Below, piece after piece: positions 3,252 through 29,969 of a stretch of 40,512 nt of DNA (position 1 is its first letter; every line of letters begins with the position of its first letter). Origin of the DNA: a virus; IMG/VR virus record IMGVR_UViG_3300021090_000057, positions 1 through 40,512 of that record. One strand, given 5' to 3'. Both the position numbers and the translations under genes were made by a program. A model generated the notes under the pieces. The model was not told the origin of the DNA and searched no databases. It saw nothing but the letters and a program-made list of their open reading frames with translations.

Positions 3252-4166
3252 TTAGGCCGTAGTGAAATCGTACGCGGTAATTGCCAGCGTCTGGCCATAG
3301 ATATCGGTTGCGCCCGACACGGTGATGAGATAGGTGGTGGAAGCGCTTAGATTGGAATTGGGATTGATCGTGATGATCTTGTTGGTCCCATCGATCGTTA
3401 TTGCAGCTGCAATGACCGCGCCCGCGTCGCTCACAAGAGAAATGCCGGTCACGCCAGTCCGCAACGCATTGTTGAACGTAAGAGTCGGGGAGACACTGAC
3501 AGCCACACCCGTGGCAGCATCAGCTGGTGACGGGGTGCAGGTCAAGGCGCTGGCTGAACCAGCCAGGGGCACCTGAACCGCATCGAACCAGGTTGTGGCA
3601 CTGAAGCCTGTGGTATCTTCGTCGCCAATCACGCGCTTGACCCCATCCAACAACGACGCATCGCCTAATAGATCAAATGGATGAACTGTCTTCACCGCGG
3701 TGTAGCTGATCTTCGCGGTCTTTGGATCGGGTGTATCGGTCTTCGTGGCTTGCTCTTCGCCTGGAGCAGCGAATTTGCCTTTTAGATATTGGAAGTAGCG
3801 ATAGCTGCCGTTGGATTTTTCCGAACGAAAAGACAATGCGACATCGGGAGGGTTGCCCCCGTTGTCAAACATGCGACCGCTCGCAGCATCATACGTCTTA
3901 CCCAGGAGGACGGATAGCACCTCCACCGGAATTCCGGTGGTTTCGAGATCGATCTTGGTCTCGCCCTCGCTGGTCATCACATCATAGGGACCATCGTCCG
4001 CATACTGGGTCTTGGAATTGCTGGCAGGCGCAGCGTTCGCGTTGATGAGCGGCGCCATGTAGGCAGGCGTGCCGGCTGTATAGGCATCGACATCATCCTG
4101 GGTCACCAGGGCATAGTAGAGATCGCGCAACCCCAGTGTGCTTTTGTATTCACCTTGTGCTATCAT
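3252..4166 (-). CDS. Major tail protein with C-terminal Ig-like domain
   Basis: This 304-residue tail tube subunit matches the phi13-type major tail protein pattern. It has an N-terminal tube domain (residues about 1-205) with TTGIPVEVLSVLLGKTYD and an FRSEKSNGSYRYFQYLKGKF block. From residue about 210 to the end it carries a bacterial Ig-like (Big_5/SwmB-like) domain beginning CTPSPADAATGVAVSVSPTL and ending YDFTTA. Such Ig domains decorate tail tubes and may bind cell surfaces weakly. AGGAG lies 6 bases upstream of the ATG. It sits between the tail terminator and the chaperone, as usual. Confidence 0.88.
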   Translation of the reverse strand: MIAQGEYKSTLGLRDLYYALVTQDDVDAYTAGTPAYMAPLINANAAPASNSKTQYADDGPYDVMTSEGETKIDLETTGIPVEVLSVLLGKTYDAASGRMFDNGGNPPDVALSFRSEKSNGSYRYFQYLKGKFAAPGEEQATKTDTPDPKTAKISYTAVKTVHPFDLLGDASLLDGVKRVIGDEDTTGFSATTWFDAVQVPLAGSASALTCTPSPADAATGVAVSVSPTLTFNNALRTGVTGISLVSDAGAVIAAAITIDGTNKIITINPNSNLSASTTYLITVSGATDIYGQTLAITAYDFTTA

Positions 4167-20897: not shown

Positions 20898-21860
20898 TTA
20901 CCGAAAGAGTCTGAGTTGCTTGTATTCGGTTTTTTGGATGAGTTGGGCATACTTCAATCGCTTTCCCGCAACCATCGAAAGCACTTCGGTAAACCGTGTG
21001 CTGTCGTTGCCACGTCTATTATTGAATCGGAATGTTTGCTCATCAAGATAACGAAACAGATGAGCCGCTTCACAACTTACATAAGTCCCGCGAAGGGAAC
21101 GCTTGAACAAAGACCAGTAATTTTCAATGCCATTCGTGTGAATGTTTCCCTTCACGTATTCGGTAGCATGGTCAATGCTTTCATGGATGAATTCATCCAT
21201 GCCGTTATAGGATTGCAGGGCATCCGTGAAAAGGTTAGAACCTGCTTCAACGCTCTTTCGGATTTCGGGTTGCAGGGTTTTCTTCTTGGTGTTTCTCACC
21301 ACTTTTGTTTTTACCTTGCTGGATTTATCCCCCGCGTTCCTTTCCAACAGACCAAACACAATAGCCTTACCAACCGTCCCGCGCCCTTGAACTCCCATTG
21401 CTTCGCGCTTCCACTTGTGCATGTTTTCAGCCTTGCCGCCTATGTAGGTTTCATCGGCTTCAACTTCGCCACTCAGGGTTTCAAATGTTCCCGATTGCAT
21501 AGCCAAGCGGATGCGATGCAACATAAACCAAGCGGTCTTTTGAGTCACTCCAAGAGCGCGGGCAATCTCGCACGAGCTAATACCGTTCTTCGCATTGGCA
21601 ATCATCCAAACACAGGGAAGCCATTTATTCAAGCCGATAGGACTATTCTCGAAGATCGTACCGACCTTGACGCTAAACTGCTTCTTGCAGGCTTTACACT
21701 TCCAAGTTTGGCGGGTGGTCAGATATGAGTGTTCTTTGCCTCCACACTTGGGGCATACAACCCCATCAGACCAACGCAGGCTTACAAGATAGTCATGCGC
21801 TACGTCTTTATCGGCAAAGTAGATTATGGCTTGCTGTAGTGTTTGCGGTTTGTCAGTCAT
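20898..21860 (-). CDS. IS1595-family transposase
   Basis: The likely start is the ATG at 21860 (MTDKPQTLQQAIIYFAD), which overlaps the previous stop and has AAAAGG upstream. The 320-residue protein has an N-terminal zinc ribbon (CPKC at 36-39, CKAC at 55-58), an HTH (ISSCEIARALGVTQKTAW), and an ISXO2-type DDE-like domain: EADETYIGG (D136), LFTDALQSY (D213) and NGIENYWSLFKR (N243/E246). All expected blocks are intact, so it is probably active. Confidence 0.93.
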   Translation of the reverse strand: MTDKPQTLQQAIIYFADKDVAHDYLVSLRWSDGVVCPKCGGKEHSYLTTRQTWKCKACKKQFSVKVGTIFENSPIGLNKWLPCVWMIANAKNGISSCEIARALGVTQKTAWFMLHRIRLAMQSGTFETLSGEVEADETYIGGKAENMHKWKREAMGVQGRGTVGKAIVFGLLERNAGDKSSKVKTKVVRNTKKKTLQPEIRKSVEAGSNLFTDALQSYNGMDEFIHESIDHATEYVKGNIHTNGIENYWSLFKRSLRGTYVSCEAAHLFRYLDEQTFRFNNRRGNDSTRFTEVLSMVAGKRLKYAQLIQKTEYKQLRLFR

Positions 21861-22170
21861 CAGGGTGTAACCTTTTCCAAATTTCATTTACTATGAGTTT
21901 CGGTTCTTCTGGTTTAGGCTGTTCTTCTGTTTCCAGATCAGGATTTATTTCTTTGAGAAACTTTCTATTGACTCTTGACTTGGAAGCGTACAAGCAATTC
22001 AAGGCACGTATTATCAACTGGAAATCTTTACGGGCATCACCTGTAAGAAAAGACTCGAACACTTCGCGTTCGCCTTTGTATGCTCGAAACTTCTTGTTGA
22101 ATTCTGGTTCGGGGGCGGGTTTTCGTCCCGCCCCTTCTCTCTTGCCACCATGCGTTTTTTTGTTCATCAT
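21853..22170 (-). CDS. IS passenger: GGKREGAGRK-type DNA-binding-like protein
   Basis: This 105-residue protein starts MMNKKTHGGKREGAGRK, an N-terminal motif common in small mobile-element proteins that look DNA-binding, followed by a helical core (DFQLIIRALNCLYASKSR) and a C-terminal acidic/proline tail. It overlaps the transposase start. Function unknown. Confidence 0.65.
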   Translation of the reverse strand: MMNKKTHGGKREGAGRKPAPEPEFNKKFRAYKGEREVFESFLTGDARKDFQLIIRALNCLYASKSRVNRKFLKEINPDLETEEQPKPEEPKLIVNEIWKRLHPDD

Positions 22171-22584: not shown

Positions 22585-22923
22585 TTATTTTGTTCCAACA
22601 TGTTGCAGCTCCTTGATCGCCTGGTCGAATTCCAACTTGGAGATTGGGCGCGTCCCATCCACGATGCAATTCAACCCGCGCTCACCGCCCGGCTCGAAGA
22701 CACTGAATGCCCTCACCCACAAAAAACCTGGACTGATATCCCGCGCCTCGCTCAACACCTGGCAGTAGAACGCGGGCATATTCCGAAACTGCTCCGTGCG
22801 GCCATCGCTGTGGATGATGCCGGCAATCGGTTGCTCGTTCACGTAGCAATCGCCAGGCTTCAACGCCATTTGCCAGCCCTGGGCTTCCACATCTTCCCCG
22901 CTCAGCATATTTTGAAATCTCAT
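22585..22923 (-). CDS. Hypothetical 112-residue early protein
   Basis: The product begins MRFQNMLSGEDVEAQGWQMA and has a strand-rich core (YVNEQPIAGIIHSDGRTEQF, FLWVRAFSVFEPGGERG), suggesting a small beta fold, and a helical end. It overlaps the winged-helix gene by 4 bases. Its stop TAA falls inside the right target duplication of the IS, so the gene is intact. Unknown function. Confidence 0.6.
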   Translation of the reverse strand: MRFQNMLSGEDVEAQGWQMALKPGDCYVNEQPIAGIIHSDGRTEQFRNMPAFYCQVLSEARDISPGFLWVRAFSVFEPGGERGLNCIVDGTRPISKLEFDQAIKELQHVGTK

Positions 22924-23600
22924 TCTTCCTCGCTTTCAGCATCGTCATGCTGCGGTCTTGGAATTCCCTTGATTTCTTCGAGCCAGGACCGCGGCATCTC
23001 GTTGTTCTGAATCCGTATAATTGCCAAGCCTAGTCTTTCACCATCTCGCAGATCGCCGACATGCGCCTTGATCAATTCAGGACTGACATGCTCCAGGAGA
23101 GAGATCTGGGATGCCTTCGGTTCTCCAATCATCACAGATTGGCACATCGCCAAATTTTTCCCAAATGTCACGCCATGGGTCAAATAGAGCGTTGAAGGAG
23201 TGCCAGGTCGCGGAATTTCCGCGACCTGGGTGTCTACTACTACTACTGAATCTATTAATCTATTACTTAAGTCTATAGTAGTAGTAGTAGTAGTAGGGCC
23301 AGAACGCGGAATTTCCGCGACCTGGAATTTGGCGGTTTCCAATTTTGGCTGTGTGAAACCTGGCAAAAGGTCTGCCCCGGGGATCCATAAGACCCGTCCA
23401 TGTGCGGCAATCTGCTTTCCGATGAGTCCCATGCCCTTGAGCTGCTTCAGCCCGTCGCGTGCGGTTTCCTGGTTGAGACCGGTCCACGTGCGGACTTCAT
23501 CCAGATCTAAAGCGGCTCGGGCGAATAGGAAAGCCAAAACGATCTGCGCAAGACTGCCCTTGGTTGAACGCACCATTAAGATTTGATGATCTGTGGACAT
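22920..23600 (-). CDS. Winged-helix protein, candidate replication initiator containing the origin
   Basis: The ATG at 23600 (MSTDHQILMVRSTKGSLA) gives 226 residues. Residues about 15-75 look like a winged helix (LDLDEVRTWTGLNQETARDG, LKGMGLIGKQIAAHGRVLWI). The middle (residues 93-131) has the peptide QVAEIPR twice, flanking a Thr run and an LSNRLIDSVVVV stretch. The DNA under this part carries two 27-bp palindromes and an A/T-rich centre, as in lambda-like phages whose origin lies within the initiator gene. The C-terminus is acidic. No recognised initiator family, so the role is inferred from origin-like DNA and position. Confidence 0.55.
   Translation of the reverse strand: MSTDHQILMVRSTKGSLAQIVLAFLFARAALDLDEVRTWTGLNQETARDGLKQLKGMGLIGKQIAAHGRVLWIPGADLLPGFTQPKLETAKFQVAEIPRSGPTTTTTTIDLSNRLIDSVVVVDTQVAEIPRPGTPSTLYLTHGVTFGKNLAMCQSVMIGEPKASQISLLEHVSPELIKAHVGDLRDGERLGLAIIRIQNNEMPRSWLEEIKGIPRPQHDDAESEEE
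23203..23325. other. Candidate replication origin inside the winged-helix gene
   Basis: Two palindromes of 27 bp centred 96 bp apart (23203-23229, perfect, half CCAGGTCGCGGAA; 23299-23325, two changes) flank a segment with (CTA)4 (23234-23245), an A/T-rich stretch and (TAG)7 (23276-23296). Iteron-like palindromes around an A/T-rich, hairpin-forming core inside a DNA-binding protein gene fit an origin. Confidence 0.55.
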
Positions 23601-23607
23601 AATAGTC

Positions 23608-24366
23608 TCACTGCTTGTTTTCCACTTGCGTCCCAACAGGAATCCCCACGATCTCCACACCCTTGTCAGTCGTTTTGATCGCACCTTGCCTAAGCAACTT
23701 GTCACGTCGTTGCTGGATCGCTTGTCGAGACTTGCCGAAAGTATCCGCAACTTGCTGATCACTTGCTTGCGGGTTGTCACGCCAGTATGCAAGCAAGGCT
23801 TCATCTTGCACGACTTGCTTGTCAGCTTGCTTTCTTGCTTGCACAACTTGCGGCTGCAACTTGTTAGCTTGCTTTGCAGCTTGCGCCTGCAACTTGGCCT
23901 TTGCTTGCTGTCTCTCCACTCTTTCTTGCCTTGCTTGCTCTCTACCCTGGTTGCGTTCCTGGATCTTGATGGACAGATCTGCGCGGAGCGCATAAAGCCA
24001 GGCGCCCGCCACACCCATCAGGATGAACGGCATCGGAGCATAGACTGCCAGTTGAGGAAAGATGTGAGTCAAGACCGTCATCAGCAAAGCCACCACTGTG
24101 TATAAGACAGTCGCAGCATAGGCCTGACCCACCGGCGCGCTTAACTTCTGCGCCTTCTCATTGACAGTTAGACGGTAATTGAAATCCCGCATCTGGATGG
24201 CCGTATTGACCGCCACGAAACCAAGTCCTTCGATCACCAGCGCGCTGACCACCGCCACGGGAAATGGAAAACGTAAAACATCTATCGTCGCCTGTCCAAC
24301 CATCCAGGCTGTTGGCACCGGTGCCAACAAGGGAAGATATTGCAAAACTCGATCTTCAAGTTTCAT
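23608..24366 (-). CDS. Membrane/coiled-coil/HTH protein
   Basis: This 252-residue protein has AGGAG upstream. Residues 10-130 hold about four hydrophobic segments (LPLLAPVPTAWMVG, VAVVSALVIEGLGFVAV, VLYTVVALLMTVL, FILMGVAGAWLYAL). Residues 135-200 are a Gln/Lys/Ala coiled coil, and the end is an HTH (SDQQVADTFGKSRQAIQQRR). Such a layout could tether DNA to the membrane. The coding DNA is rich in the pentamer CTTGC. No family recognised. Confidence 0.6.
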   Translation of the reverse strand: MKLEDRVLQYLPLLAPVPTAWMVGQATIDVLRFPFPVAVVSALVIEGLGFVAVNTAIQMRDFNYRLTVNEKAQKLSAPVGQAYAATVLYTVVALLMTVLTHIFPQLAVYAPMPFILMGVAGAWLYALRADLSIKIQERNQGREQARQERVERQQAKAKLQAQAAKQANKLQPQVVQARKQADKQVVQDEALLAYWRDNPQASDQQVADTFGKSRQAIQQRRDKLLRQGAIKTTDKGVEIVGIPVGTQVENKQ

Positions 24367-25103: not shown

Positions 25104-25186
25104 CTACTACTACTACCCAGCCACAGCGTCTGAATCGGGCGAAATATGCCTGTTTTCAGTAGTAGTAGTAGTAGTAGTAGTAGTAG
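25104..25186. repeat. (CTA)4 ... (TAG)9 inverted trinucleotide repeat at the end of the FtsK-like gene
   Basis: (CTA)4 at 25104-25115 and (TAG)9 at 25160-25186 flank 44 bases and can form a hairpin. The left block supplies the stop codon of the gene. The arrangement repeats the one at 23234-23296. Confidence 0.7.
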
Positions 25187-26423
25187 AGGTTAAATACTCA
25201 ATTACCTGATCAACCTTTCGGCACCAGGAGTTACCTGCATAAGCCTTTCCTAATAGCTGAGACACTTTGCTTTTGCTCATCGACGGAAACCATTGCTCAC
25301 GGATTGATCCTGCCAATTGGATGATCTCGCTACCTTCTGGCAGTATCTCCATAACAATCGGCAGATGTTCATGCATCTCCACGTCGACCGTTGCAGCTTG
25401 CGCGCTGACCAGCTGGCGGACCGCATCCGAGACCGGCGGATAGATCACCTGGAAAGATTGGAACTCGATCAGCTTGCCTTTCCAACTGATCAGTCCGCGT
25501 CCCAGCACATCCGGCAGCGCTTCTGCACCCTTGTAACCCAGCATCGTCACGCTGTCGTTGTGATGAGGCACGCGGAACGCAACCCGCGTCGAGAGATTGG
25601 TCTTCGCAAACATCTCCGCCTGGGTGGGTTGGTTCGTGGCAATGATCGGATAGAGTCCCACATAGCGGTAAATGCGGATCATCTGCTTGAGCAGGATCTT
25701 GACGCTATCGGGCAGGTCCGCAGCTTCATCCACGAACAGAGCCACCGGCAGAATGAGATCGTTGGGATGGTGCTCATTGTGATCCCAGATATTCACGCAT
25801 CCGCTCCTGGCTAGTTGCTGTTCACGTTCTGCGAACAAAGTCTGCAGCGCTTCGAACTCCTCCGCCTTGAGCATCAGATGGAAGTTTGGCTGATCTGCAT
25901 AGCGCATGAATTCAATGGAATGTTTTCCGTCCCAGGCGTACACGAGCGTTTTGCCTCCGTGCAGCAGTGCCTGGATCCATGCATGCTCTTCACCGGTCTT
26001 GCCCATGCCAGTGGAGCCACCGATCAGGAACGAGATCCCACCCATGAGCGGGATCCATAACGGACCATTCTCGGTCATGCCTACCGGCAAATGCCAGGCA
26101 GAGGTTTGCTGTGAGAAGTCCAGTGCAACCGATGCATCGAGCGCGATCGGCACACGCGGCGTTTCAAGCCCCACCTGCAGGAAGAGCCCGCGTGTATTTG
26201 TGCGAACGACTCTGCGACCCTCGAGCCGCGTGGAAAGGTCATGGATAAAGCCCTCATTGACCCGCTCCAGTTTGATGGCAGCCGGATCAAACGCCACGAT
26301 GATTCGGTTGCTTCTCTGCCACAGATAGAACACGGTGCCGGTGGTGTAGTGCATAGCCTTGGTCTGGATCAACAGGTTCAGCGTTTTGAACGCCACCCGC
26401 TGGATAAAATCATTGGTCATCAT
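25113..26423 (-). CDS. FtsK/TraB-like DNA translocase ATPase
   Basis: This 436-residue protein has Walker A GGSTGMGKT (135-143) and Walker B LPVALFVDEA (about 226-235), then TNQPTQAEMF in the sensor region, the pattern of FtsK-type motor domains. A small HTH-like region (SKSKVSQLLGKAYAG) and a Thr run precede the end. There is no N-terminal membrane domain; instead it overlaps a membrane lipoprotein gene. FtsK-like motors move double-stranded DNA in plasmid transfer and in some phages. Role here unknown; it may work with the neighbouring membrane proteins. Confidence 0.8.
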   Translation of the reverse strand: MMTNDFIQRVAFKTLNLLIQTKAMHYTTGTVFYLWQRSNRIIVAFDPAAIKLERVNEGFIHDLSTRLEGRRVVRTNTRGLFLQVGLETPRVPIALDASVALDFSQQTSAWHLPVGMTENGPLWIPLMGGISFLIGGSTGMGKTGEEHAWIQALLHGGKTLVYAWDGKHSIEFMRYADQPNFHLMLKAEEFEALQTLFAEREQQLARSGCVNIWDHNEHHPNDLILPVALFVDEAADLPDSVKILLKQMIRIYRYVGLYPIIATNQPTQAEMFAKTNLSTRVAFRVPHHNDSVTMLGYKGAEALPDVLGRGLISWKGKLIEFQSFQVIYPPVSDAVRQLVSAQAATVDVEMHEHLPIVMEILPEGSEIIQLAGSIREQWFPSMSKSKVSQLLGKAYAGNSWCRKVDQVIEYLTSTTTTTTTTTENRHISPDSDAVAG

Positions 26424-29111: not shown

Positions 29112-29969
29112 ATGAATGACGATCTCGAAAACTTCCTCGCTTCCAATCCCTATTCGGATTCAACACTTCGCACCTATCGAGACATTCTGAGGCGCATCTT
29201 CGCAAGGAGCCAAGATCTCGCGAAGATGACAGCCTCAGAACTACTAACTATTTTGAAGCAAAGCAGTTGGGGAAACGCTCGCCAGTGTCTTGCATTGGCA
29301 GCGACACAAAAATTTCTTTCGTGGAAATATGGACATGCACATCCCGCCTTGATCGCCAAGCTGAAACGTATCCAGGGGAAGCCGCAAAGGTCGCTCGATC
29401 CTGAAACCGCCCTGAAGCTGCTTGCCTCGTTTGACCCCTACGCCGCAAAAGGTGCCCGAGATCTCGCAATATGTTCACTCGTGCTGGATACTGGTCTGCG
29501 AGAGTCTGAAATTTGCAGACTGCAACAGGCATACACAAATCTTGAGCATCGCACATTGCAAGTCATCGTGAAAGGCGGTCAGTGGGAGGCGGCAATCTTT
29601 GGCGAAGCGACTGCCATGCGGATTGATCGTTGGATGTCGTTCCGTAAGATTGCCGATGGTCAGGGCTTTCTATTCACGCATGTTCAAACAGGAAAAGGGC
29701 TTACGCCCGAGGGACTCTATTCGATTGCCAGGGAATGGGGTCGGAAGATTGGCATACAGCTTTGTTTTCACGACCTGCGCCGTTCGACGGCTGTGATGGG
29801 TGTCTTGAATGGCTTATCTGAACGCGCCATGATGGAGCTGTATCGCTGGAAATCGTCTACGATGATCAAGCGTTACACCAGGAATCTTAGATTGGAGCAA
29901 CTTAGACAATTTCTGGTGGTAGATAGCCTTCTCAAGCTTCCTCCGCCTGATGACCAAGAAAAGGTATAA
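29112..29969 (+). CDS. int: Tyrosine integrase
   Basis: This 285-residue site-specific recombinase begins MNDDLENFLASNPYSDSTLR with AGGTGAAA upstream. Its catalytic domain has Arg130 (TGLRESEI), Lys154 (VKGGQ), HDLRR (His220, Arg223), Trp246 in place of the second His, and nucleophile Tyr255 (KRYTR). The N-terminal SAM-like domain (residues 1-90) is compact, and no arm-binding domain is obvious. The attP candidate lies 30 bases after its stop. It integrates and, with an excisionase-like partner, excises the prophage. Confidence 0.93.
   Translation: MNDDLENFLASNPYSDSTLRTYRDILRRIFARSQDLAKMTASELLTILKQSSWGNARQCLALAATQKFLSWKYGHAHPALIAKLKRIQGKPQRSLDPETALKLLASFDPYAAKGARDLAICSLVLDTGLRESEICRLQQAYTNLEHRTLQVIVKGGQWEAAIFGEATAMRIDRWMSFRKIADGQGFLFTHVQTGKGLTPEGLYSIAREWGRKIGIQLCFHDLRRSTAVMGVLNGLSERAMMELYRWKSSTMIKRYTRNLRLEQLRQFLVVDSLLKLPPPDDQEKV

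Follow-up and report, generated by a model that had tools for sequence, protein, structure and literature searches.

A probable replication origin inside the putative initiator gene of a temperate tailed phage, with inverted triplet tracts between palindromes

According to our analysis, the cassette at positions 23203-23325 of the window (the whole analysed stretch of 40,512 nucleotides, IMG/VR virus record IMGVR_UViG_3300021090_000057) probably serves a temperate tailed phage as its origin of theta-type replication, lies inside the phage's own proposed initiator gene and would be opened stepwise. Its origin function appears likely because of the comparative anatomy of the cassette and its two independent links, to oriC-like loci and to families of phage initiators. 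An earlier note on this DNA had proposed a replication origin candidate in the winged-helix gene, and this proposal is supported: relatives keep the layout, and inverted triplet tracts are also met at oriC-like loci and in phage initiator genes. The record carries HK97-type head, portal, terminase and tail genes, and these structural genes, together with that of a tyrosine integrase (29112-29969), mark the phage as temperate and tailed. The host phylum is probably Chloroflexota, our best guess, since a homologue of the proposed initiator (L047) sits in a Chloroflexota genome. The window proteins that were scanned included no recognisable helicase, primase or helicase loader. The GC skew of the window gave no clear origin signal and is uninformative here, because nearly all window genes share one strand.

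The cassette begins with a perfect palindrome, CCAGGTCGCGGAATTTCCGCGACCTGG (23203-23229; 13-bp arms, 1-bp loop), proposed as an initiator-binding site. Four bp inward of it lies the (CTA)4CT arm, CTACTACTACTACT (23234-23247), which is DnaA-trio-like, with 3'-GAT-5' repeats on the minus strand. It is followed by an A/T-rich core (23248-23275; 78% A+T), the proposed unwinding element, and by the (TAG)7 arm (23276-23296), the inverted partner of (CTA)4CT, which ends 2 bp short of the second palindrome, CCAGAACGCGGAATTTCCGCGACCTGG (23299-23325). The latter is an imperfect near copy of the first, with two left-arm bases changed, and the two stand 96 bp apart centre to centre. The earlier note had described near-identical palindromes around an A/T-rich core with inverted CTA and TAG tracts, and this description of 23203-23325 is confirmed, the copies differing by two bases; so is its statement that both copies encode the peptide QVAEIPR, which they do on the minus strand within the open reading frame 22920-23600, where the triplet tracts encode homopolymers. 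The arrangement is real and well beyond chance. The 13-bp palindrome arm is the longest in the window (maximum of 11 in Markov shuffles), perfect runs of four triplet units start at 33 positions, compared with 0.3 in shuffles (about 100-fold), and the flank-to-flank repeat reached p = 0.005, which is the floor of the 200-shuffle test. A 30-bp stretch in the core region with 24 A/T is equalled or surpassed at only 44 of 40,482 window positions.

The open reading frame on the minus strand at 22920-23600 encodes a protein of 226 amino acids, for which we infer the role of initiator. According to an alignment with six relatives, it has three parts: a winged-helix domain at the N-terminus, a linker and, at the C-terminus, a conserved domain with the pattern GVTF..GIGEPKASQIS..V.PE.I.AHV..GLAI.RI, and it is the linker (about residues 92-133) that the origin cassette encodes. 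The N-terminus gave a weak match to winged-helix chains in a PDB profile search. No family was matched by the whole protein in Pfam and PHROG profile searches, and no relative of known function was detectable for the C-terminal domain among Pfam, PHROG and PDB profiles; the relative L006 reached only E=0.049 against an O-like PHROG.

A single-protein scan revealed no close relatives in viral contigs, INPHARED phages or PLSDB plasmids, so that neither a minimal plasmid nor a homologue with an annotation or experimental record was obtained. The strict pattern (CTA)4 N20-50 (TAG)4 was sought across 2.9 million viral contigs and was present at only seven loci, four of them (L002, L005, L006 and L008) in the linker of a winged-helix open reading frame. 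The triplets of L002 and L006 are flanked on each side by a palindrome specific to the locus, the flanking repeats of L008 are imperfect, and in L005 the palindromes are repeated on one side only. Because these loci had been picked by their triplets, a search by protein homology only was also run. It yielded L024/L025, L052 and L047, of which L024, L052 and L047 are 37-44% identical to the window protein; L047 was the one homologue in a scan of 400 Chloroflexota genomes. All of them keep the order palindrome, inverted triplets, core, inverted triplets, palindrome, with CTT/AAG in place of CTA/TAG in L047. Few loci came from the pattern scans, and protein homology contributed three independent ones. 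The loss of palindromes in relatives, which the earlier note had named as evidence against an origin, was not observed: L024, L052 and L047 retain palindromes, triplets and spacing. Palindrome centres lie 82-102 bp apart in ten loci (besides the window, L024 92, L052 92, L002 93, L047 88 and L006 83 bp). The palindrome sequences themselves vary among the relatives (CGCGGAAATTCCGCG, CTCCGATTTAATCGGAG, ATCCGAAAATTTCGGAAT, GGTGAAAATTTCACC) at an unchanged position, as expected if the initiator and its site change together. Throughout the examined DNA (421 kb, including duplicate loci), inverted triplet pairs occurred only at the searched-for loci, at the homologues and at a second site of the window.

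The same triplets are met at chromosomal origins. TAG repeats at oriC are known as the DnaA-trio (3'-GAT-5'), along which a DnaA filament is seeded from adjacent DnaA boxes (PMC6669920, PMC8287927). In a chromosomal scan for strict inward (CTA)4..(TAG)4 that covered 84,980 bacterial and archaeal species, each represented by a single genome, 14 loci were found, and in 12 of them (L009, L011-L015 and L017-L022) the CTA-core-TAG cassette adjoins DnaA boxes within 150 bp. These boxes stand on one side only in all but L022 and are usually parted from the triplets by a few G/C-rich bases. Because of the DnaA-box clusters, we infer that the 12 loci look like chromosomal oriC; the taxa include Cyanobacteria, Treponema, Bipolaricaulota, Atribacteria, a bifidobacterium and others. 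Among 244 cyanobacterial genomes, the DnaA-box layout accompanied four of six inward matches versus none of four outward ones. At oriC-like loci of several phyla, an A/T-rich core lies between DnaA-trio tracts, (CTA)n and (TAG)n, that face each other, and such paired trios may be relevant to the loading of two helicases.

Like the basal origin unwinding system (BUS) with DnaA-trios of oriC (PMC6669920, PMC8287927), the phage cassette has 3'-GAT-5' trios that begin a few bp from a protein-binding site, which in the phage is a predicted one, and enter an A/T-rich segment. The trio rule calls for three or more trinucleotides 3'-NAN-5', with GAT preferred (PMC8287927), and four or more per side are present in the window. 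The difference concerns the flanks: no DnaA boxes were found within 150 bp of the window tract, whereas the rule wants a box within about 16 bp, and the palindromes take the place of the boxes on both sides, 2-4 bp from the triplets. Seen from the palindrome, the predicted binding site, the trios are oriented 3'->5' outward in the window, L002, L006, L024, L052 and L047, whereas the polarity is reversed, or the triplets are different, in some related phages. The open-licence literature, which largely leaves out the subscription journals, yielded no description of phage origins with trio-like tracts.

The reversed polarity was revealed by an outward scan of viral contigs for (TAG)4..(CTA)4, intended as a negative control. 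It returned six loci, four of which (L028, L030, L032 and L033) lie in winged-helix genes and have flanking palindromes, spaced by 90, 99, 82 and 102 bp, respectively. The encoded proteins share a homologous N-terminal domain with the window family (hhalign 97.8%) and, in at least L028, L030 and L033, end in a different C-terminal domain; a further viral scan for relatives of L030 and L033 returned only those two contigs again. The triplets in these four related loci follow the order TAG..CTA, and the polarity from box to trio is therefore broken there. A reversed-letter control, ATC..GAT, gave five records, two of them the same sequence in opposite orientation. Three of the loci carry inverted ATC/GAT tracts inside genes resembling replication initiators (L034:1955-2002, L035:4926-4983 and L038:5197-5254): the L035 frame matches the PHROG "DnaD-like helicase loader" (E=4.8e-22), that of L038 matches the PHROG "O-like" (replication initiation; E=9.8e-6), and that of L034 has a weak match to a replication initiation protein. 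Iteron-like repeats adjoin the tracts in L035 and L038. Both scans were accordingly rejected as pure negative controls, as both also match initiator-like genes, and the DnaA-trio-specific reading is weakened thereby. Pairs of inverted triplets are thus seen repeatedly in initiator genes that belong to different families. They were absent from seven typical O/DnaD-like phage initiators (L040-L046), however, and are therefore not general to the O/DnaD-like class.

Further inverted CTA/TAG or TAG/CTA pairs were noticed at L003:4335-4381, L007:10654-10697, L023:10821-10857, L029:3104-3149 and L031:1504-1552. No long initiator-like open reading frame was seen spanning these five pairs, which are possible intergenic origins; in L023, TTATAACGTTATA palindromes lie directly upstream of the triplet pair.

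For the window cassette, we propose the following order of events, in which the first, second and last steps are modelled on lambda O. The winged-helix domain would bind both palindromes, probably as one dimer on each, and the binding would distort the 96-bp segment between their centres, so that the A/T-rich core melts. The exposed 5'-TAG-3' repeats, which read 3'-GAT-5' away from each palindrome, would then be held open by one filament per strand, formed by DnaA, the initiator of the host, or by an AAA+ protein of similar kind. Finally, the C-terminal domain would recruit or position the host replicative helicase, one per strand, leading to bidirectional replication. The capture of the TAG strands by a DnaA-type protein is the least certain of these steps, and we place it slightly short of an even chance. 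A more general formulation is also tentative and somewhat short of even: these phages would form a class with a symmetric, two-sided oriC-unwinding module in the initiator gene, in which phage-specific palindromes replace DnaA boxes, two DnaA-trio tracts aim at a common A/T-rich core, and the phage initiator passes the melted strands to host DnaA or to another AAA+ protein that takes three bases per subunit. If this is true, phages use the bacterial trio-based code for strand opening, with its control rewired to their own initiator. The signature of palindrome, triplets, core, inverted triplets and palindrome would then help to recognise those origins and initiators of uncultured phages that homology does not reveal, and a testable question arises for chromosomes as well, namely, whether two facing DnaA-trio tracts at oriC serve to load a helicase onto each strand.

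The alternative that survives best, which we still regard as unlikely, also places an origin inside the gene and takes the triplet arms for inverted repeats that form a hairpin or cruciform on each strand, e.g., for primosome or helicase loading, rather than for three-base units that DnaA binds in single-stranded DNA. Such repeats would explain both polarities, CTA..TAG and TAG..CTA, as well as the other triplets (CTT/AAG in L047; ATC/GAT in L034, L035 and L038), and the reversed polarity and the alternative triplets fit a hairpin and a general three-base reader equally well. However, a hairpin requires no three-base period, as any 12-bp inverted repeat suffices, yet the relatives found by homology retain triplets, and the chromosomal oriC-like loci show the same triplets beside DnaA boxes in a single polarity.

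The origin reading as a whole gains from the comparison with lambda, where ori lies in the middle of the O gene (PMC7466680). In both cases the origin is in mid-initiator gene (here, the cassette 23203-23325 inside the frame 22920-23600), repeats bound by the initiator, as predicted for the phage cassette, stand beside an A/T-rich tract, and an origin-encoded linker splits an N-terminal DNA-binding part from a C-terminal part; the palindrome pair and the A/T-rich core are also kept in relatives. In contrast, the window protein has no detectable sequence homology to lambda O, and its Pfam and PHROG searches returned no O or Phage_rep_O family. Lambda ori has four adjacent iterons on one side, whereas the window has two palindromes, one on either side of the core, and the inverted triplet tracts of the window are absent from the description of lambda. 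The comparison "as in lambda O" made in the earlier note thus holds for the anatomy and fails for the sequence. The DnaD-like and O-like phage initiators (PHROG 6493, 391, 428 and 270) likewise combine a winged-helix protein with origin repeats in the linker, and a few (L035 and L038) also have inverted tracts, of ATC/GAT, in contrast to the seven typical ones; the window protein, however, matches none of these four PHROGs. Bacillus DnaD recognises TnnT motifs that face the trios on the other strand (PMC10201434), and a DnaD-like reading of the cassette is possible because CTACTACTA contains TnnT motifs.

Binding of palindromes is common among winged-helix proteins, and profile searches with the window protein gave faint matches (E 0.24-0.31) to regulators of transcription and to AspA, a partition protein of archaea. 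The palindromes could accordingly be operators or a partition (centromere-like) site for the winged-helix protein, serving autoregulation or segregation and not replication. This appears rather improbable, as the sites lie mid-gene, away from the position of a promoter, and the layout of a core with inverted triplets recurs at oriC-like loci and in phage O/DnaD-like initiator genes. Moreover, the integrase in the window makes a partition system less needed, and no ParA was recognised in the window.

The window alone cannot separate a DNA signal from a peptide repeat, because both of its palindromes encode QVAEIPR. In the relatives, the two copies lie in different frames and encode different peptides: DSDLIGV and NPIKSES in L024, ESDLIGV and TPIKSES in L052, NPKISEP and SENFGI in L047, and RRISDS and SENFR in L032. 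Because of these differences in frame and peptide, selection at the palindromes acts on the DNA and not on the peptide. The idea of the earlier note that DNA and protein are constrained together therefore stands for the DNA, whereas its shared-peptide part does not extend to these four loci. It is very improbable that the cassette is a functionless by-product, produced by repetition at the protein level and by slippage of triplets within a disordered linker (TTTTTT..VVVV), to which the shared peptide and the homopolymers of the window would correspond, since this is already contradicted by the frames and peptides of L024, L052, L047 and L032, the pairs are exact inverted complements that recur at similar spacing, and similar cassettes adjoin DnaA-box clusters in chromosomes.

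Several minor observations concern the surroundings of the cassette. An IS1595-like transposase gene (20898-21887), recognised only by eye from its zinc ribbon and DDE-type domain, lies inside the phage immediately downstream of the replication region. On the other side, 17 CTTGC pentamers are clustered within about 250 bp (23685-23938; 69 across the whole window) in the minus-strand gene for a membrane protein with a C-terminal helix-turn-helix (23608-24366); the cluster may reflect repeated codons of a Q/A/K-rich segment or constitute a set of binding repeats.

The sole other inverted triplet pair of the window, (CTA)4 / 42 bp / (AGT)9 at 25104-25187, is found at the 3' end of an FtsK-like gene (25113-26423) and has no flanking palindromes. 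L024 has an inverted pair (~3810-3862) at the same place in the homologous FtsK/SpoIIIE-like gene; the proteins are 70% identical, the peptide at the pair has diverged, the pair has been kept, and the TAG arm overlaps the stop codon in both. A second opening site and a strand-loading site are possibilities for 25104-25187. A (CTA)4..(TAG)4 pair also occurs within an FtsK/HerA-like gene of an Oscillochloris MAG (L016:4276-4344), where it separates the ATPase part from the C-terminal helix-turn-helix part, with AGCCCCTAC repeats nearby.
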